A model generated the notes under the pieces. The model had not been told where the DNA came from. It ran no database searches and saw only the letters and a list, made by a program, of their open reading frames with translations. Below, in pieces: positions 34,943 to 49,900 of a stretch of 64,000 nt of DNA (position 1 is the first letter of the stretch; each line of letters starts with the position of its first letter). The DNA is taken from NCBI GenBank assembly GCA_964017065.1, contig OZ024790.1, positions 5,321,294-5,385,293 of the forward strand, written 5' to 3'. Origin of the DNA: Haliclona indistincta. Lineage: Eukaryota > Porifera > Demospongiae > Haplosclerida > Chalinidae. The position numbers were made by a program, and so were the translations under genes.

Positions 34943-37900
34943 ATGTCGTCTTCATCACGTCGCCATGGTCGAAAAAGCAAAGAGAGACGAATTTCTGGGA
35001 AACCTTTACAAGATGCTCCAAACCTGGCAAGCCCTATTCTACCACAAGACAGTTCAAAGGTGAGCTAAGACCGTAGTGCTGAATGGGTTAAAATGCATGC
35101 TAGCAGTTGGGAAGGCTTTTCAATTGTTTAGGAATTTTAAAAGAAATTTATCAATAAATGTATAATTTCTTTTTACAGGATTACAGTTCTGACATTTGCT
35201 TTGGATCATCGTTTGGTTCACAGTTCAATCGAGACGTCATTTCTTTCATGGACAAAATGGACTACGAATGCAGTGACCCAAAACTGAACCTGTTCAGTAC
35301 ACCAGCTGCTGTTCATACTCGATCATCACTAGCAGACAAGTCGTCCAGTTTGTTTGAAAAATCAACACCAGCGCATGAAAAAGAAGCTAAATCATATTCC
35401 TCTTTCCTAGTTTCACCATTTCCTACTAACAATTCATCTGCTGTGCAAACTCCAGTTTCTTCTTGTCTCTGTCTCTCTCAATGGGGACTCCCTGAAAAGG
35501 TGCTAGAGGCTTACAGTGAGCGAGGTATTGAAACAATGTTCAAGTGGCAAGCTGAATGTCTTTCTCAACCTGGCGTCCTCAGTGGTTGCAATCTAATATA
35601 CTCCGCTCCAACAAGTGCAGGGAAGACACTGGTAGCTGAATTACTTGCTCTGAAATGTGTTCTTGAGCTGCGTAAGAAAGCCATCATGATTCTACCATTT
35701 GTCAGTATTGTTCTCGAAAAGACACGATATCTTAAAGAACTGTTTCTACCAGTAGGAGTAAAGGTTGGTGGCTTTATGGGAAACCAGTCTCCACATGGAG
35801 GGTTTGCTGCTGCTGACATAGCTATTTGTACTATCGAGCGAGCAAATAGTCTAGTGAATCGTCTTCTTGAAGAAGGTCGGTCTGCTGAACTTGGTGCAGT
35901 GATTGTTGATGAGATCCACATGATAGGCGACCATCATCGTGGATATCTTCTTGAGCTGCTGCTTACAAAGCTTCTCTTCAAGATCAAACAAAGCACATCG
36001 GGAAGTAATGACGAAGACAAGGAAACCATTTCTACTGTCCAGATAATTGGAATGAGTGCTGTTCTTCCTAACTTGCCTATTTTAGCTACATGGCTTAAAG
36101 CTGCTCTTTACCAAACTGATTTTCGTCCTGTGCCTCTTAAAGAGATGGTTAAAGTCGGTCCCACTCTCTACAGCATTGACTTCGATCACATTAAAACTTA
36201 TGAAGGATCCAGAGGAGATGAAGAAGACATACTGACTATCTGTCATGAGAAACTAATGGAAGGTCACTCTGTGGTTATCTTCTGCCCGACTAAGAACTGG
36301 TGCGAAAAGCTAGCCTTGACAATCTCTTCTGCTTCTTTCCTTTCTTCTAGAGACTGTTTTGAGGTCAAGTCGTCTGTTGAACTAGATCACACAGCACTAA
36401 GCATTGCTTGCGAGGAGCTACACAGAACTCCTGTTGGGTTAGATCCTGTTCTGCGTAAAACCGTACCAGCTGGTGTAGCCTTCCACCACGCTGGCTTGAC
36501 TTACGATGAGCGAGCAATTATTGAGAATGCTTTTCGTCAGTTCCACATCAAGATTCTTGTTGCTACCTCCACGCTTTCTTCCGGAGTAAATCTTCCTGCT
36601 CACTTGGTCATTATTAGAACTCCGATCTTTCATAGGTCTCTGGTTGACATCATGGTCTACAAGCAGATGGTTGGAAGAGCGGGTCGAAAAGGCATGGAGA
36701 CACACGGAGAGAGCATACTCATGTGCAAACCCTCAGAGAGAGGAAAGGTTTCTACTTTATTGAAGTCAGCTCCTCAACCAATTAGGAGTTGTCTCGGTCG
36801 AGCTCCACCTTCTACCACTGGTAAAGCATCGCATGGAACAAGCCATGTGAAGAAAACTACGGATCACCTGCTGTCAATGAGTAGAGCTGTCCTTGAGGTC
36901 ATAGCAAGTGGTACAGCTTCAAGCAATCAAGATGTAGTGACATATATCTCTTGTACACTACTGTATGCAGAGTTGGAAGAGGACTTTAAACAACTGCAAG
37001 GCATAACAGAAGTCGATTGTTCAGTGAATACTTTAACCCAAGAAACACTCGCCTATCTGTCTGAAAATGAGTTTATTGCATCTAGGAGCGGCAAGACACG
37101 TTTTCAGTCTTCGCAGCTGGAAGCAAGCAAGCTAGAAACTAGTGAAATTAATGAAGACGGAGGCTTGTATGCTACTCAGTTAGGAGTAGCCACTGTTGCT
37201 TCTGCTTTGTCTCCGTCTGAGGCTTTGGTGGTCTTTGCTGAACTTGTCAAGGCAAGGAAAGCATTTGTGCTTGAGAATGAACTGCATCTTGTGTACTTGG
37301 TAAGTAAGCTTATAGACTGTAGACTGTGTATATACTGCTACTGATTTGAAAGCATGAATTTTAGACTGCCCATGTTCATGTTCAAACCATGGATGGATAG
37401 TATACATGTAGAGGCTATGTACTGTGTACGAGAAATAAATACAGTAGTTCTTGTTTATAATCATGTGATGTCAATACTTACATGTACGCCAGTTCTAACT
37501 CTCAATAATAACTTGGCTCAGCTTGTCAGTACTGTAATTCTTGAACCTGTCTTAGTTTAGATTCTTATTAGTGCATACCGTATAGCGGGTAATTTTGGAG
37601 GGTCAAAATTTTGGTGAATGACCCAGATTTTGTGTTTTGGCAAATTTAATTTTAATTCCCAGCACCTAGTCCACGTTCGGTGAAAGCTTGGCGATTCACT
37701 AAATTTACCAAAATTTCTCTCACCAAATTATCCGTTATACAATATGCGTTTATGTGGGTACATGGATATTCATAATTTGTTTTTTATTGTTTGTACAGGT
37801 GACACCAGTTTATATTCAAGAACAATGGTCATCAATAGAATGGTACAGATATCTAAGATTGTTGGAAGGACTACCAGCAGACATGAAACACGTCGCCAAC

Positions 37901-40900
37901 GTTATCGGTGTTCAAGAGTCTTTTCTTGCTCAGGCTGTTCAAGGAAGAATACCTGAGAAAACCCATCTTCAGCGTCAGAGACTGCAGATACATAGACGCT
38001 TCCTTGCAGCCTTGGTCTTGCATGATTTAATTCAAGAAGTGCCCATGCCGCTGGTTGCTCAGAAGTACAATGTACCAAAGGGTCTGCTTCAGAACTTACA
38101 GTTATCCTCGAGTACATTTGCAGGAATGGTCACCGTCTTTTGTAGTCGACTTGGATGGAAGAACTTGGAGCTCCTCCTAGCCCAGTTCCAAAGTAGACTA
38201 GAATTTGGAATAGAGCGAGAACTTTGCGAACTTGTGCAAATATCAGCGCTTAGTGGAGCTCATGCTAGAGTGCTGTACAATGCTGGCTTTCATACTCTTA
38301 CTGCTTTAGCTACTGCTAATCCTATCGCAATGGAGTCTTGCCTAAGAAAAGCGTTCCCGTTTCACAGCTTGAAAGACAATGGTGGTATCAAAAAGAGAAC
38401 AATTTGGTGCAGCAGGTTGAGAAGAGAACTAACTGACTACGAACTGGTGGAGCTTATCATCAAGGAAGCACAGAAAATCGTCTCAGAGCAACTCAGACTT
38501 CCTGATGTAATGTGGAACGTACCTGTCACAAAAAATGACAGTCCGAACCTTGAGAAAAGGATAAAACTATTCTCTTCACCATCAGCTGTTTCAAAAACTG
38601 AGATTTTTCATGACCCTGCACTTGTGAAGACTAGTACAGAAACTGTGAGGGAAGCCACTGGTGAGCAAGCTATGGTAGAACAAAACGAACAAGTTGCTCG
38701 GTCTTCAGTCAAGCCTACCTCAGAAATAGCAAACTCACCTCAAGCTCTCACTCCTCTTGCTACTTCAAGAGCTAACACCAGCGCTAGAGAGGCTAGTCTT
38801 TCATCACCCACATTCGTAGACAGTGTTACTAACCTTTCAACTAGTCTTTTCAGCTCACCTACACTGGCTGTTGTAGACTTGGAAGATGTGGAAAAAGACG
38901 ATCATTCTGAAAACCCACATAAAGCAAGTTCTCATACGATTGAAGAGCTTCATGATTTTGCTGCCGAGTCACTTGCTTACAATAGAAATTTACCTCAAGA
39001 AGCCAAGGAACCAATGTCTATCACTGATCTCGAACAATTGCACAGTTTTACGCCAAATAATTTGAATCTGACGGTTATTGATGTCTCTTCCAATGACATA
39101 CTCTATAAAAACTTTGTCTCATTGTCATCCGAACATTCTTCTCTGTCGTTTGCTTTTGCTACCCAACCAGACAAAACAGAGGGTATCGGAAACACTAAAA
39201 ACAATCAACCACTTCAAATGAAGGGGATTCCTCTCAGACAATCCAACAAACAGATAGTGGGTGTGGCGGTTTGCTTTGGAAGTGAAAAGGTGTATTATGT
39301 AACACTTTATGACTGTGTTGGCAAGGAGAATGTTAAAATGGAGTCATCGTTTGGTCACAACCCAGTGGTTCCATTGTCTTCTCGTCTGAACAGTCTAGTA
39401 CATATTTTGGCTATTTCTACTAAAACCAACGTAACAGTCTTTGACATGAAGAGACAGGCTAAACTAATGATGGCCGCCACGGGATCAGAGCTTTGTCAAG
39501 AGTCATTCTATTGTGACCCAGTTGTTGCTGATTGGCTATTAGATCCAAATGCAAAGAGCAAAACTATTCATCAAATGGCAGCTCAGTATCTTCCACGACA
39601 AATACTGGTCAAACGAGGCAAACACGATCCTACCAGCACTCTCTGTACCTTGGCTACTAACTCACCCGCTCCTTACATCCGAGCAGCAGCTGAGATCACT
39701 GTAGCTACCAGACTCATGAATAAACTAGAGACATTGCTTAAAGCTGAAGAATTGTACTCTTCATTCTGTAAGGTAGAAATGCCCACTCAACAACTCTTAG
39801 CTAAGATTGAGCTGAATGGCATCGGAATCTGTGTAGAGCAGTGCAGCCAAGTTCAAGACACTCTCAAGACACACCTCTCTCAGTTAGAGCAGCTAGCTTA
39901 CCAGTATGCTGGTAAACATTTCACTCTTTCATCTTCAGACGAGGTTGCACAAGTTCTTTTCGTTGATTTGAATCTACCCTCTGGACAAGAAGAGCAGTCT
40001 ACTGGTGGTGGAGGGGTTAACACTAGAAAAGGACGAAAACGGAGAGTTCAACATTTAAGCACATCTAAGGATGTCTTGGCTAAGATCCTTCACTTGCATC
40101 CACTACCAGCTGTCATCATAGAGTGGAGAAGAGTCTTCCACACACTGACCATGACTGTGTTTCCACTGATGAAGAAAATAGTACATCACGAGTGCCTGGG
40201 ATGTGATCGTGTTCACTCCACCTGCCAGCTACACACAGCAACAGGACGAGTGTCTTTCACTGAGCCTAACATCCAGAACATTCCGAAAGAATACGAGATT
40301 GGGCTTTTAAGCAGTACAGAGGATCAGAAGAACATCTCACATCAGTTTGAAATATCACAGGAGATGGTAGAGAAGTCTTACAGGCTTCAGACTGTGTGTA
40401 TGCGAAATGTGTTAAGTGCGTCTTCGGGATCGGTACTCTTAGCCGCAGACTACTCTCAACTAGAGTTAAGAATCTTGGCGCATCTATCAGGTGACAGCAG
40501 ATTGCAAGCTTACCTTAACAGTGATGGTGACGCATTTAGACTGATTGCAGGGGAGTGGCTTGGAATACTACCAACACAAGTAACCGATGAACAACGACAA
40601 CAAACTAAACACCTTTGCTACGGCATGATTTATGGGATTGGCGGGAAGGCTTTAGCTGAGCAGCTGTCTGTCACAGAACCAGAAGCATTGGGATTCATGG
40701 AAGCGTTTAAATCAAAATTTCCTGAAATGGAGAAGTTCATTACGACTACAATCCAGCAGTGTCGTGCTAATGGCTACATCACTACCATCACTGGGCGCAG
40801 GCGATATCTTCCAGGAATACATCATGCTGATGCACAGACCCGTAATCAAGCTGAGAGGCAAGCAGTGAATTCCACTATCCAGGGCTCTGGTGCTGATATT

Positions 40901-41164
40901 GTTAAAACTGCTATGAACAATATAGATTGTTATCTTAGGCACAATAAATCAAGTACCTTTCTATGCTCTGATCTCAGCCAGCCTGTGCTACTGATTCTGC
41001 AGTTACACGATGAGTTACTGTATGAGGTGCATGAGAGTGTGCTGGCAGAGGTAGCTTCTGCTGTCAGGAAAGAAATGGAGTCTGCTATAGCTCTGACTGT
41101 TGCACTACCAGTAAAGTTAAAGACTGGGAAGTTGTGGGGAACATTGCAATCAATAAAACATTAA
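34943..41164 (+). CDS. POLQ: DNA polymerase theta (helicase-polymerase)
   Basis: Polymerase theta performs microhomology-mediated end joining of double-strand breaks. Three exons, 34943-35059, 35179-37299 and 37799-41164, are all phase 0 and encode 1867 residues. The helicase region shows SAPTSAGKT (about 180), VDEIHMIGD (about 280), ATSTLSSGVNLP and QMVGRAGRKG (about 530). The C-terminal family A polymerase shows motif A AADYSQLELRILAHLSGD (about 1630), motif B RQQTKHLCYGMIYGIGGKAL (about 1680) and motif C LQLHDELLYEV (about 1815). The protein is shorter than human POLQ (about 2590) because the disordered middle is reduced. Helicase motif III reads MSAVLPN rather than MSATLPN. The start is the first ATG after the shared promoter. 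An AATAAA signal (41152-41157) overlaps the final codons. The 499-base second intron holds an inverted-repeat element. Confidence 0.96.
37578..37740. mobile_element. CCGTATAGCG-family MITE in polymerase theta intron 2
   Basis: The element of about 163 bp begins CCGTATAGCGGGTAATTTTG and ends with the imperfect complement CCAAATTATCCGTTATAC. ATTTTGG words are repeated inside. It is the same family as the insertion at 2957-3150, and a flanking TA is present on the left. Confidence 0.65.
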
Positions 41165-41673: not shown

Positions 41674-44600
41674 ATGGCCGAAAGGCACTATTATCAACGT
41701 GAAGGATTTTCTGCATTGATTTGCTCACTTTGCTTTCGTCAGAATCCGCAAGATGAAGAGCTTACAGGAGTCTACTGCAAAGCACCCAGATGGCATCATG
41801 GTGCGCCAACCGTGCTAGTGACTTGGTCGACGGACTGGGACGCGCTAGTAGAAATACGCCCCCTACCTCAAAAAGCGGCACGTCGATTTGTAATGTGCCC
41901 TCACTCGCCGAACTGCATGCATTATCCTGACTGCACTTTCGCGCATAGCAAAGAAGAGGAGACAGTCTGGAATACTCAGAACAAGCGAAGAATTCAGCAA
42001 ACAACCTCTGGTCCGGTAAGTGCATTGTACAATGGTAGTATCAGTCAGTACGGTTACATGTACAAACTGCACAGGCTAACATTTACAGTGGGAGCAAATC
42101 TTACTCTCAGCGTTCAAGCGGGAGGAAAATCAATTACCAAGACAGATGTCGGGAGAAAACGGAAAAAATGATTGCAGATGCCAAGCGTGTTTTGACGCAA
42201 CGGACCTACCGGTTAAAATTCTACTCACTTCTCTATCATGAAGAAAGAAAGCACGCAGACCTGCTTTCAAAACGGTAAGTCAGTTTATCAAGATTATACA
42301 TTTGATTGCTACATGTACTTAATTTTTATTAATAGGTGTAATGGTACCTACCAACTGAATGTGTATGAATTTGGAAGTTTTCCGCCTTGTGTGAGAAATG
42401 GCAATCCTCGTAGCAGATATGGATGTCTTTCAGGCATGACAGGAGACCAGATCATGTATGCTAGCCAAGCAAGCCAGTGTCTCTTTATCGTTAATAAAAA
42501 CCGAGAGCAAATTTGTGCAGCAGATGTTCTACAAGAGAATATGCAAGGTCACTATGAAGGGATGCTGATCGAGTTTAAGGATGAAAATGCTATAGCGCTT
42601 GAGAGGCATAATCTCACAGGCTTCGTTAGGGTTGTCAATGTCGAATTTGAAGTCAAGCATTTTTATTTTGATCTTTTACATGAGTCATTGGAAGCATTTT
42701 CAAACCTTGAAAAGATTTACAAGGTAATGCCAGACCCCCCTCGTACACACATCGTGTCGGATGGACCACCCCTTCTGGATCCACCAGGTATATATAGCTT
42801 TCTCAAGCTTGATAAAGAAAGTCAATTGCCCGCTCTATCAAAGGTGGTCAACAGTGGATCTCAATATCCTGTCTTGGTATCTGGAGCTTTTGGAACAGGC
42901 AAGACACGCCTGTTAGCGGTGGCCACTTATCAATTCATTGAAGAGGGTAGAAGGAGGAATGAGCCAACCCGAGTACTTATTGCTTGTCATCATCAGGTTA
43001 CTGCCGACACATTTATAGAGGAGTACTTTGGGAAGATGGTTGAGACGACTACAAGAAAGTGGGAAGTCAAGTTGGCAAGAATCACTCGAGCACGTTACTA
43101 TATCGACAAAAAAAATTATCCTCGTCGGTATTTGAAACAGTACGAGTTTCAAGATGTGTTTGATTCAGAATATAGATCAGAGAAATTTGTTGTTGTCGTT
43201 ACAACATTGCTTACTAGCCTCAAATTTCATAAATTCATTGGAGATGGATATTTTACGCATATTCTTCTTGATGAAGCTGCTCAAGCTAGAGAGCCAGAAG
43301 CTATTGCTCCTCTTATCATGGCCAACACAGAAACAAAAATTGTTATTGCTGGAGATGATTGTCAGGTCAGCATTGCATTACACGACGATACACACAAATT
43401 ATTATTTTAAATTAAAATTTGTGAATCTCATTATAATTGTGAATCTCATTAGCAATGAGAATTTCATGTTTTTTATACGAACAATTTGTTTGCATGACCA
43501 GACCTGCTTAGATGACGCCATACCTAATTTTTTAAAATACAATGAGTTTCCTGGCGACATTCAGTATTTTTATGGCTTTATCATAAATTTAGCTGGCTAC
43601 TGCAACATTTTTAGCTATCATTGGTGCAGCCCAGTGAACACATTGCTGCGCGTTTATCAAAAAATTTTGTGCTCAACTAAGCGCTACTAGTTATTCAGCA
43701 ACCAACCCTGAAGCACCACTATTCAACAAATTTGACACGGTCGCTGCTGTTTACTGCAATAGGAAAGAAATCTTGATATGGGCAAGTGCGGCACTCACTG
43801 GCAAGAATGCAAGTTTGAGAGCAATATGCATAGCATAAAACCTACACATGATATATCCGAGAGAATTGATCAGCATGCATCTACAAGATTAAAACAATTA
43901 AGGGCTATAGCACATTTCACATGAATAACTAATACATTGCAAGAACTTAAATGAGAGTAGCTGTACCTGTTGCAACATTTCCCATGTATACAGAACTGTC
44001 ATTACCATGCTAATACCATTATACAGGCCATGATTTTCTGTTTCATGAGTTATACAGTAAAACCTGGCTATTCCGGTCATCCTTGTGGTAAAATTAGGCA
44101 GGTGGCTGCATTCTATATAGATAGATTTACGAAAAAGGCTTGTAAAAAAATTTGCTCCCACAGCAAACCACTTATGCATGCTTGTGATAATTATTATAAT
44201 TAACCTAAATTTAAACACAGGTTGGTCCTGAAATTTTGGTGTTGGGTGACATTGCCCGTGATAATGGATTGAAAACATCAATCTTCACTCGTCTTCTGGA
44301 GTTTTATAACAAGTACGAGCTACCAGTGGCTTTTCTCACTACTAACTACCGTTGCCATGAAGAGATTGTGCATCTCGCTCGCACTCTGTTCTATTCTCAA
44401 AGTTTGACACCTCGTGCTGACCCAGAAAAGATACCTGGTTTAGACAAACCTATCTGGTTTGTGTGCTCAAGCCTCAAGAAAACATTTCCAGTAGACAAGG
44501 AAACTGACAAAGATGAAGCCACGGCTCTCATCAAGCAATTGAAAACCTTTTTCAAGCCTAGACAGATGAATGATGTCTGCATTATGGCTACCAACAGACA

Positions 44601-46656
44601 CCAGGTAACATAATTATGCATGCACATGTAATACAGTATGACAACATTCTATATAATTAGGTGTTATGAGTTTTAAAAATTATAGAACATCTGCAAAAAA
44701 ATGATTGCCTTATTGTGAGTGTCCTCTAAGTGGGAATTCTGTCATACAGCTCTGTACATTCACTTCTGCAGTGAGTCTGCAATGTATATTATATTATTTA
44801 TTCTACCTTTATATATAGTTGTCTGACATCAAAGGTGCCTTGTTCAAGGAAAGTAGGTCATTTATTCCGACTCAATTTGTGCCAACCTACTTAATACAAG
44901 GTATGCATTGCATGACTGTGATGCGTACGTAGAATGACACATTATCTTTGTAGGTGAGGAGTTTAAAGCTCTTTTCATGAGTACTGTTGAGGCAATAGAT
45001 GCATCAGGGTGTTCTTTCAACCCCACAAAGAGCCTGTGCACTCCAAGTGTCTTCAACACAGCCATAACCAGAGCCAAGAGTCTTATTGTTGCTGTTGGTA
45101 ACCCTTACATACTCATGCGTATGGAGAAGATGGAGAAGAAGATGGGCAATAACAAGCAATGCTGGGCAGAGTACCTTCACAGATGCTTTGAAATGGGAAC
45201 CACAGTGGCAGGAGAAGGAATCACACAAAACGCCATCAAAAATCTTAAAGAGTTTGTTGAAAACCAGCTTGGGCGTCCTGTTCAAGAGCGTATCCAGGAT
45301 AAAAATAGATCTAAGCAGGGCTTGATGAAAAAAGAGGAGGAAGAAGAGAAAGTAAAGCAAGTACACAGCAAAGGCCCTGCTGCTGCAGAACCAAATCTAT
45401 GGCCATCTACATCAGCTCTACATCATGAGACTAGACCTACTCTACAACAGCAGGTAAGTATCACACAAAGTGAATGAGTTTACCAGTTACCTATGTGCTC
45501 CTGGTACCACTAACTTTGTCATTAATTTTATATCAGGTTCAGTTACATGCATGAAAGCCTGATATTAATTTGTTCACTGTTAATTATTTTGTTTACTGTT
45601 CATAGAAAATATTTGAGGAGCTGACTACTGAGCAAGTGAGTTAAACATCATGAAACTACAATAATTATAATGGTGTACTGCTTTAGGCAAAGTGTGCTAA
45701 TGCTATGGCTACTATAGATGAGCTCAAAAAGGAAATAGAACAGAAAGAAGAGGAAATCTGCTATCGTCAACAACAACTCGAAGAGATGCATGAGACGTGT
45801 GATATGGTAAGTTTTTTGCATAGTTTGTAAGTGTGATTATTAATTGTATTTGCTTTCACAGCTAGAAAACGAGCAGTGGATGGATAAAAAAGAAGTGGTG
45901 ATAACTGAAGAAGTACTAGGCAAAGGTGCCTGGGGAGTAGTGAAAGTGGCCAAGTTCAGAGGGTTGCGAGTGGCTGCTAAGTTTCTCCATTCAGAAATTG
46001 TTTCAAGGCATAACTGTAAAAAATTCTTGAAAGAAGGGGCTTTCAGTTTTAAGCTGCGGCATCCTAACTTGTTGCAGTTCATAGGTGCTATTAGGACGGA
46101 TGAAGGAAATCTTGTGATAATCAATGAGCTAATGCCCACTAGCTTGCGTAAAGAGTTGGAAAAGAATGAACTGACTAAAGAGCAAGTCATCACCATTAGT
46201 CAAGATGTGTCCTGTGGTCTCAACTACATGCACCAGTTTAGACCACACCCCATCATCCACTGTGACATCAGCAGTGGGAATGTCCTCCTAGAGCCTTTCT
46301 CCAATCACTGGAAAGCCAAGATTTCTGATTATGGGTCAGCCAACTTTACTTCTTTTACTGAAGTCGCTCCAGGTGCTCCAATTTATTCTGCTCCCGAGGC
46401 TAAAAATCCTGATCGTCACTCAACCAAGATGGATGTCTACAGCTTTGGAGTTCTAATAATCGAAATGTGTCTTAGAGAGCTTCCAGCTGAAAAATTCGAA
46501 GAGAAGAACGCTCAGATCGGGCTCATTCGTTGGACGGAAATGGTCGACAAAATTATCAGAAGGTGTATCGAGGAGCAACCAAATGATCGTCCTGATGCAA
46601 GTGAAATTATGTCTATACTGGACGAGATGTACATAGAACACACATGCACTAGGTGA
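41674..46656 (+). CDS. CCCH zinc finger - SF1 helicase - coiled coil - protein kinase fusion
   Basis: Nine exons: 41674-42015, 42075-42274, 42336-43365, 44221-44604, 44819-44900, 44954-45453, 45606-45635, 45687-45806 and 45862-46656. They total 3483 bases and 1160 residues, with all phases matching. Residues 76-93 contain a CCCH finger (CPHSPNCMHYPDCTFAHS) of the HELZ type. Residues 240-740 form an SF1 helicase of the MOV10/HELZ/UPF1 group: GAFGTGKT, LLDEAAQ, AGDDCQVGP, TTNYRCHEE and NTAITRAKS. A Glu/Lys-rich region and a coiled coil (IDELKKEIEQKEEE) follow. From about 910 a complete protein kinase domain follows: LGKGAWGVV, VAAKFL, HCDISSGNVLL, DYG instead of DFG, SAPEA and DVYSFGVLI. Catalytic residues are present. 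The kinase resembles tyrosine-kinase-like (TKL) kinases. The role is unknown; RNA sensing coupled to signalling is inference. The start is the only early ATG before the finger. Confidence 0.85.
43366..44220 (+). other. Large intron inside the helicase region
   Basis: This 855-base intron splits helicase motif III, with AGDDCQ on the left and VGPEIL on the right. It is far longer than the other introns of the gene. It is AT-rich, and I see no inverted repeats or coding exon in it. Confidence 0.8.
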
Positions 46657-46988
46657 TGTGTTCGTTTTAAACTATAGTTTCAGCAAAGATTCGTAGTGAC
46701 CAGTAGTAACCCTAGCTAAAAGTTACAATACATGTAGTAATCGCTTTAGTATTGAAATTAATTTTATTGTTTGGGCTTTATTTATAATGTGCGATAACTC
46801 ATTTTCACACATGAGTAGCCGCCATCTTAATTCGCGGTCACGGTCATCCTTACATATCATTGTCGAGCGCAGTGAGTGGCAATGATAATTTTTGCATAAT
46901 ATGCACAGTACTACCCAACCCATGTTGTATTGTCGGATGACCAAAATATTATTGCATACTGGTAACAGTGTATGTCTGATGCAAAGAG

Positions 46989-49900
46989 TTAAAATAATAC
47001 TCTGGAGCCAGACTGTTCACTATGGCTAGATTTTCTGTAAGAAAAAATAATTGTAAGTCACCAAGCAAATGTGGATATGAATACATGATGACTCTTGTAC
47101 TTACCTTGAAATAAGGCTATTAATACAGTCAATAAACTTGTTTTGATGAATATATGAAGGAGCAGATTGCGATGATCCAGTGGAGCAGCTGTCAGACTGA
47201 ACACATACACACTCTATCACATGTTGCAGCTGCTTTACTGAGATACTGAGATCAGTAGAAAGAGAGAATACACCACCACCATTCCTGCATAATAAAGGTA
47301 TCACTACTATTAAGAGTGTACACAAAGGGTAGGGTGCGGGCAGATTGATTATATAGGTTTAACAGGACCACTTTAATTATCATTCATAGTCCGATCGGTA
47401 ATGCTGCCATGAACTCGAGAGCTACCATGGACACTTTGTGTCGCCACAAATGTATAAAACGTCCAGAATTCTTGTAAAACGTTATGCATGAAGCAGTTTT
47501 CGTGCTGCACAGAATGCCATCTTATTTAGCAAAATCACAGGTCAAATGAGGTTATTAAGCAATGCCTAATTTTGATGGGTCTATACCGGTCTATACCGTC
47601 TATAATACACTTGCCCAAAAATAACTCGTTCTTTTGTCTCAAGCATGGCGATACAAAGGATGGTGGCCATGCTCACTCACCTGAGGATGCGTCTTGCTGT
47701 GAGGTAGTCCTGTACTGCAGCAGACCTCATGAGAGGTACAGGATAGGACCATGTGAACAGGTCAGGAAGACCAAGAGTGACAGTGCTATCAGACAACTGA
47801 TGAGCTCCTGCTAGTGTCATGGTGGCTACCACCATCACTGATGAACCTAAAAATATACGACGAACCATGTTATTAAAAAAATTGCTAAGAATACAATAAT
47901 TCTGCATCAATAGTGGTAGCCTCCATACTTCTAATGGTGGAAGGCAGACCATAACAATTACTAACAGATTTGAGAAGACATTTTGGCAGGAATAGTTCCT
48001 AAATACACAAAACCGTGACAAATCTTTGGGTAAGTCTTCTAGACTCTAGCTGTGCTAATAGGTGTTTAGCTCATTGAGATGCTTTATAACTTTATTCTCT
48101 ACACACAAGCAGTAGACTAGCTGACCAGCAGGTGGTGATGATGAGAGAAGAGTGTTCACAGCATGCATCATGGCGTGCGATACTGTCAGTTGACTGGCTA
48201 CTTGCACATACTCCACAAGTCGATGAAGATCATCCAGTACTATCAGTGAAAACTCTGATCTAAAGAGAAATATACAATCATAAATTCTAACAGTGTGTGA
48301 GTGAGTGAGTGAGTGAGTGAGTGAGTGAGTGAGTGAGTGAGTGAGTGAGTTTGCAATACTGTGTTCAAAATGAGCAACAACACAATAAGTGTACACAATA
48401 TATTACTATACCTGAAAGCATCATTGAATGTTTGGTGCAGGAGATCCACCTTATGTGAGTCGGGCAATCCAATCATAGATGAGGCCGTCAGAATCTACAA
48501 AATTAACCGAAAATCAGGTAGTGACACTTTGAACACAATTATATTACCTTAACAAAGGAGAAGTGTCCAAGCACTGCAATATGAGCCGCTAAACTGGTTT
48601 TACCTGTACCTAAACACAACAAGTCATTATCTGTTACGAAAAACACATAACGTACATGCATACTGCAGAACAACACTAGCCAGACACCTACACACGCACA
48701 CACATAATTATTCGCTCATTCTTACCTCTTTGACCATACAGTAGAACAGACTGCATTCTAGCAGCTGTTGTTGAGGATTGTCGTAATGAATGGACAATGT
48801 CCAGTAATGAGGATGCAGTGGCTTCATGTACAAGACCAAGAGACAGGAAGGTAGGAGGGAGGAACTGAGATACTATATGCATCTGAGGGAGGAAGGAAAG
48901 GAGAGAGGAAGGGAGAGAGGAGGAAGAGAGAGAGACAGACAGACAGATAGAGAGACAAAGGGAGGGAGCGAGAGGGGGGAAGGGTGAGGGAGGGAGAGAG
49001 GAAGGGGGAGGGAGGGAGGGAGGGAGGGAGGGAGGGAGGGAGGGAGGGAGGGAGGGAGGGGAGAAAGTAATTTGTGCAATTGTAAACCTCTCTCTACCTC
49101 AGAGTGTGTATAAGCTGGGGTGACTTCACGAAGTGCTCTTTGAAAATTGTCTGATGTGACTTGAAGTTGAGAACTTAGATCAGTTTGCTGAAGGAAAACA
49201 ATAAACACTTTACAATGTTGTAGCATAATATTAATCTCTATCACCTGTTTCTCTAGAGCGAATGAAGCAGCTGCTCTCACTACTCCGGCAATCTCTGCTC
49301 CACTGAATCGAGTGGTGTTTGCTGCTAGCTCACGGAGATTGACGTCTTTAGACAACGCTCCAGCGTCACGCATTGAGCGAGTGTGGATGTCAAATATCTC
49401 ATACCTGGGATAACATCATACACACTCACAGCAGTCAGTTGTACAGTACATGTATAAAAATTGTTTACTAAAGCAACTGATCGAGCCTATAATGATTCGC
49501 TAGAAAAAGAGGTTTGGTGGATCAATCTGGGATCAATTTTAAAATCAAAATGCGAGGTTTTGAATCATCAAATTTTACATGATGTTAAAATTTGATATCA
49601 TACCTTCCTGCTTCATCGGGTAGTCCTACCTCAATCTGTACCTCAAACCTGCAGTATAGTATAATAATTTTCAAAATGGAATGTCAGTTAAAAGACAGCA
49701 ACTAACCTGCCTGGTCTAAGCAGAGCACGGTCCAACAGCTCTTTTCTATTGGTCATACCAATCACCAGTATATTGTTCGTCTCACTGCACCAGATGAGAA
49801 AAGTGTGTCTTTGCAATACAACAATTATTTCACACTCACTGTAGTCCATCCATTAGTGTAAGCAGCTGGTTCACTAAGCTATCATAGGCAGCCGAGGCAG

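Follow-up and report, generated by a model that had tools for sequence, protein, structure and literature searches.

A predicted gene joining a HELZ2-like helicase to a protein kinase in the sponge Haliclona indistincta, and its possible origin and role

A stretch of 64,000 nucleotides from the sponge Haliclona indistincta (GCA_964017065.1, contig OZ024790.1, positions 5,321,294 to 5,385,293; hereafter the window) carries, at 41674-46656 on the plus strand, a superfamily 1 (SF1) helicase followed closely by a protein kinase. The question is whether the two belong to one gene and, if so, what a protein that unites them might do. An initial annotation had read nine exons joined in phase into 1160 residues, and the same structure was recovered when the gene was rebuilt from the DNA: every intron has GT-AG borders, the phases are consistent, and no stop occurs inside any of the nine exons. 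The predicted product begins with a CCCH-like motif, continues through an SF1 helicase and a short coil, and ends in a protein kinase. One gene and one transcript for helicase and kinase, as predicted from the DNA, is well supported, and there is a high probability that the four parts stand in this order in one predicted protein. The exons are the following.

Exon 1, 41674..42015, plus strand: residues 1-114; start codon and CCCH-like motif (CPHSPNCMHYPDCTFAH)
Exon 2, 42075..42274, plus strand: residues 115-181; pre-helicase region, which several paralogues match from 126-159 to 181
Exon 3, 42336..43365, plus strand: residues 181-524; first half of the helicase, with Walker A GAFGTGKT at 42883-42906 and the DEAA box at 43270-43281
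Exon 4, 44221..44604, plus strand: residues 525-652; end of motif III (QVGP) and NYRC motif
Exon 5, 44819..44900, plus strand: residues 653-680; enters the QGEE motif, which intron 5 splits
Exon 6, 44954..45453, plus strand: residues 680-846; TRAK motif, helicase end and charged tail; donor CAG/GTAAGT
Exon 7, 45606..45635, plus strand: residues 847-856; short linker, phase 0 on both sides
Exon 8, 45687..45806, plus strand: residues 857-896; coil-like (heptads by eye), phase 0 on both sides, with an in-frame ATG
Exon 9, 45862..46656, plus strand: residues 897-1160 and stop; protein kinase, with HCD at 46258-46266 and DYG at 46327-46335

The start of the gene lies in a stretch free of stops from 41629, in which the ATG at 41674 is the first Met, and the N-terminus of a paralogue (L031) aligns with the window protein from the same Met. 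For exon 2, an acceptor at 42089 was rejected because the frame fails; 42075 fits. Adjacency by itself was not accepted as proof of a fusion, because the helicase and kinase families are both large, and the case therefore consists of splice sites, frames and paralogues. The donor that ends exon 6 shares with one other site the top score among the 8098 GTs of the window (both strands, by a score table). Coding scores, trained on two long upstream frames and with the introns of the window gene plus the stretch after it as the noncoding set, are positive in the required frame for exon 5 (+5.2), the exon 6 tail (+20.2), exon 7 (+4.6) and exon 8 (+16.7), and negative in the other two frames of all four. 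The 586-base stretch at the helicase-kinase junction is single-copy in the genome. The single gene of the initial annotation thus stands, as a prediction, on splice sites, coding scores and the paralogues described below.

When the window protein was scanned with Pfam, AAA_11, AAA_12 and Pkinase (3.8e-33) were all above cut-off. By sequence search, UPF1 is the closest solved-structure relative of the helicase part. In the alignment to UPF1 (2xzo) the DEAA box, motif III, the YR motif, QGxE and TRAK are in register within a significant stretch, and Walker A (GAFGTGKT, of the form GxxGTGKT) is in register only in a separate stretch that by itself is not significant. The features of an SF1 (UPF1-like) helicase are present, namely DExx box, motif III, YR motif, QGxE and TRAK/TRAR, together with AAA_11 and AAA_12. 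It had been proposed that this is a MOV10/HELZ-type helicase with all core motifs; the SF1 assignment and the motifs from DEAA onwards are retained, and HELZ2-like is the better label because paralogues carry an RNB domain, a judgement made on domains and not on an alignment to human HELZ2, HELZ or MOV10. The proposed CCCH finger could be kept as a pattern, C-x5-C-x4/5-C-x3-H, which occurs in 6 of the 9 sequences scanned, that is, in the window and in 5 of 8 paralogues, some of whose loci may stop short of the 5' exon; Pfam made no call of a CCCH finger in the window protein. Nor did Pfam report a RIG-I domain there (E up to 0.1), a HELZ2-type RNB exonuclease domain or a second helicase, and only the kinase follows the helicase. 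NCBIfam gave six matches to the window protein, all far below their cut-offs, including an antiphage kinase at 78.8 bits (cut-off 460) and, at 72.3 bits (cut-off 348.9), a helicase of the IGHMBP2 type.

Among the best 60 matches listed for the kinase, plant CTR1 is the best solved relative, and CSK, TAO kinases, TAK1 and IRAK4 are found too. The alignment with CTR1 bore out the intact kinase that had been annotated, since the Gly loop, Lys, alpha-C Glu, HCD, catalytic Asp and Asn, DYG and APE are all aligned. DYG, which takes the place of DFG, was seen in all 8 kinase paralogues aligned and is therefore the family norm. HCD occurs in 1 of these 8, and HRD in the other 7. Between the window kinase and its paralogue L002 the nonsynonymous divergence (dN) is 0.26 and the synonymous divergence (dS) 0.72, which gives a dN/dS of about 0.36 and indicates a kinase under constraint.

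The relatives of the helicase in the same genome were collected with exon 3, which found 25 places; with the last, a fragment of 50 residues, set aside, 24 helicase loci remain, and the locus lists were matched by coordinates. An RNB domain follows the helicase on the same strand in 10 of the 24 loci, as in HELZ2-like genes. One of them, L032, holds helicase and RNB in one continuous frame, with RNB at 5.9e-27 and OB_HELZ2 of Pfam at 24.1 bits, short of the 29.3 that it requires. By coordinates, 7 of the 24 helicases sit upstream of a helicase-RNB locus; the seven tandem pairs are found at C7 0.38-0.44 Mb, C7 8.57-8.63 Mb and C9 1.90-1.91 Mb. Each tandem helicase and the helicase-RNB locus downstream of it may be one long gene. 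The order along the DNA is helicase-helicase-RNB, whereas in human HELZ2 the RNB domain is flanked by two helicases, as described in PMC9839780.

The remaining seven helicases, the window gene included, form the closest group and all lie on C8. At C8 10.135-10.143 Mb (L027 and L031) the last helicase frame continues openly into filamin-like repeats, which score 27.4 and 20.6 bits, one above and one below the Pfam cut-off of 26.9. In four paralogues of this group the counterpart of exon 6 ends in a donor-like site. For two of these helicases, at C8 9.697 and 9.857 Mb, there is a Death exon at a distance of 1.1 and 1.3 kb on the downstream side, preceded by a good acceptor; predicted splices join helicase to Death in an open frame, at phase 1.

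Death exon L033, C8:9693916-9694218, minus strand: predicted in-phase splice from a HELZ2-like helicase
Death exon L034, C8:9854273-9854575, minus strand: predicted in-phase splice from a HELZ2-like helicase

At the first of these loci the Death domain scores 7e-9 in Pfam when the joined piece is scanned. Both Death exons are followed further downstream by repeats of the PPEPAAQ type and by another Death domain, which scores 30.3 bits at L033 and 16.9, below cut-off, at L034. At two other paralogues with a donor-like site (C8 9.981 and 9.999 Mb) no recognised module was found in about 5 kb downstream, and three open frames there gave nothing in a Pfam scan. Death domains near helicases were first held to be unspecific, because the Death family of this genome is very large (1372 first-look candidates, of which 150 were scored), and the count of helicase-Death loci was limited to the two with an in-phase join. 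A cluster of many Death-family open frames, of about 890 residues each, occupies C8 11.89-12.24 Mb. That sibling helicases end differently, for example in Death, suggests an RNA-sensor family with exchangeable output modules.

The kinase also belongs to a family in this genome. A search with the kinase exon gave 147 scored places, and the neighbourhood counts that follow refer to the best 75 of these 147 copies, the window kinase included. In 51 of the 75 the 8 kb upstream hold a Kelch match on the strand of the kinase, and Pfam confirmed Kelch in all three loci tested. Five tandem Kelch-kinase copies have a coil exon whose phase-0 donor precedes the phase-0 acceptor of the kinase exon; in 3 other kinase copies examined no coil donor of that pattern was found. 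At C7:5495110 the kinase has upstream of it (L041) an SH3 domain, above cut-off in one frame. The seven copies that match the window kinase best share 59-63% identity with it. The same kinase and the same phase-0 coil-kinase junction are thus shared with the tandem copies of a Kelch - coiled coil - kinase family, and the window gene differs in having a helicase where that family has Kelch repeats. The simplest account is that the helicase replaced Kelch ahead of the coil-kinase module by way of phase-0 introns. We give about even odds to the wider proposal, that an RNA-binding, ATP-driven HELZ2-like SF1 helicase gained its coil and kinase, as a C-terminal output, from this family within the same genome and that the product works as the RNA sensor-kinase described further on.

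Several observations weigh against a fusion, and they would fit two adjoining genes, a helicase whose end lies at 45477 or close to it and a kinase that starts from the exon 8 ATG or slightly upstream and has lost its Kelch part. If the exon 6 donor is not used, the helicase frame closes eight codons beyond 45453, at 45477, and the in-frame ATG of exon 8 is a possible start for a separate kinase. In 24 of the 75 kinase copies, the window's among them, there is no Kelch match within 8 kb upstream, and a Kelch-free separate kinase gene is therefore possible; two such copies were looked at for Kelch, of which L038 shows a Kelch-like frame that is weak (20.5 bits against a cut-off of 50) and L042 a few that were recognised only by eye. 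The predicted gene end is unsupported by a signal, for neither AATAAA nor ATTAAA occurs in 45300-47100, either between the domains or after the kinase; variant poly(A) hexamers are present at 45304, 45351, 45734, 45883, 46165, 46174, 46727, 47039 and 47080. The fusion, moreover, is seen once, in one genome, and is known from DNA alone. To the question, raised earlier, of whether helicase-kinase pairs recur, this genome gives a negative answer at close range: no kinase copy among the 75 other than the window's has a helicase upstream, and no helicase among the 24 other than the window's has one of these copies within 20 kb. Against two genes, however, stands the exon 6 donor, since an unused donor would by chance be among the two best of 8098 GTs. 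Exons 7 and 8 keep the phase and score as coding, paralogues retain a donor-like site at the same exon end, and two of these are spliceable onward in phase. The missing AATAAA/ATTAAA between the domains also speaks against a helicase gene that ends there, but it is a weak argument because the kinase end is without one too. We consider two separate genes unlikely.

If the gene is one, its product need not be a sensor. It could be an RNA-surveillance or decay enzyme that phosphorylates itself or bound factors, without immune signalling, as a UPF1-SMG1 pairing in cis. Such an enzyme would fit the finding that, among solved helicases, UPF1 is the nearest in sequence, but sibling helicases are spliceable to Death, an immune or cell-death adaptor domain, and the kinase best matches CTR1, CSK, TAO, TAK1 and IRAK4 among the matches listed and not a PIKK, the class to which SMG1 belongs; on balance this is improbable. 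Alternatively, a real fusion might have arisen by chance and serve no selected function, or its product might be a scaffold whose kinase is dead. The fusion is single-copy, HCD stands in place of HRD, and dN is higher between the window kinase and L002 (0.26) than between L002 and L007 (0.15), so that kinase activity could be weakened or altered. Such a relic nevertheless seems very unlikely, since all exons are stop-free, the catalytic Lys, Glu, both Asp and Asn are retained, and the dN/dS to L002 is about 0.36.

The initial annotation had put forward a nucleic-acid sensor-kinase, and an RNA sensor with a kinase of its own is the reading that we prefer for the window protein. According to it, the CCCH region and the helicase would bind foreign or aberrant RNA and move along it; binding would gather several molecules or alter their shape, the coil would keep the kinases near each other, and these would phosphorylate one another and then a downstream signalling protein. 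RNA binding, multimerisation and kinase signalling are here inferred from the families to which the parts belong. The idea of a sensor with a built-in output gains indirect support because two paralogues can be spliced, by prediction, in phase to Death and the wider family is HELZ2-like helicase-RNB. In PKR and IRE1, too, a sensor part and a kinase share one chain, and clustering through the sensor activates the kinase; to our knowledge, neither has a helicase or an ATP-driven motor. Likewise we know of no kinase in ZNFX1. This protein is described as a helicase and double-stranded RNA virus sensor in innate immunity (PMC11574294, PMC12585102).

An immune sensor is the most likely reading of the window protein because of literature on HELZ2, on sponge genes annotated as HELZ2, on RIG-I-like receptors and on Sacsin-Death proteins. 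Human HELZ2 is reported as interferon-stimulated and as reducing LINE-1 RNA (PMC9839780). The window protein resembles it in having an SF1 helicase behind a region that may be zinc-finger-like, and paralogues here carry RNB (HELZ2 being compared by description); it differs in having one helicase and no RNB, plus a kinase. In the sponge Dysidea avara, two HELZ2-annotated genes were reported to be less expressed under a symbiont treatment than with seawater microbes (PMC11229196), and Sacsin-like proteins fused to Death domains have been described from a sponge (PMC3710099). RIG-I-like receptors are described as having gained diverse signalling domains by domain grafting and exon-intron changes, with an 'Amphimedon-like' Death type among them (PMC8998645). 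They share with the window family, as far as that account goes, a helicase sensor with exchangeable signalling domains; the variable part is N-terminal in the receptors (Death, CARD, DED, IG and others) and C-terminal in the window helicase family. Moreover, they have a superfamily 2 (SF2) DExD/H helicase with a RIG-I C-terminal domain, whereas the window protein has an SF1 helicase and an enzyme as output. No kinase-bearing RIG-I-like receptor is named in the matching places listed from PMC8998645, and neither a helicase-kinase fusion of the window type nor a HELZ2-Death protein was found among the literature matches listed.

It is tentatively proposed, at somewhat less than even odds, that these genes represent an undescribed class of innate RNA sensors, in which HELZ2-derived SF1 helicases would have had their C-terminal output exchanged by exon shuffling for Death, filamin-like repeats or a kinase, and in which the window gene would encode a one-protein receptor that senses RNA, multimerises by its coil and signals by its own kinase. 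Signalling domains grafted onto sensor helicases are on record from the RIG-I-like receptors, an SF2 group; should the same hold for HELZ2-like SF1 helicases, a second helicase lineage would have been turned into an immune receptor platform, and the window gene would be a compact sensor-kinase that is testable as a purified protein. It would also bear on the role of HELZ2 before interferon, as the helicase here appears to have as its partner either a domain that degrades RNA or domains for signalling.

Two neighbours of the gene were noted by eye only. Just upstream and on the same strand, window positions 35158-41164 hold long frames with the look of a POLQ-type helicase-polymerase. On the minus strand, at 48688-49415, a frame with the look of part of an AAA ATPase runs into a long SLPP tandem repeat.

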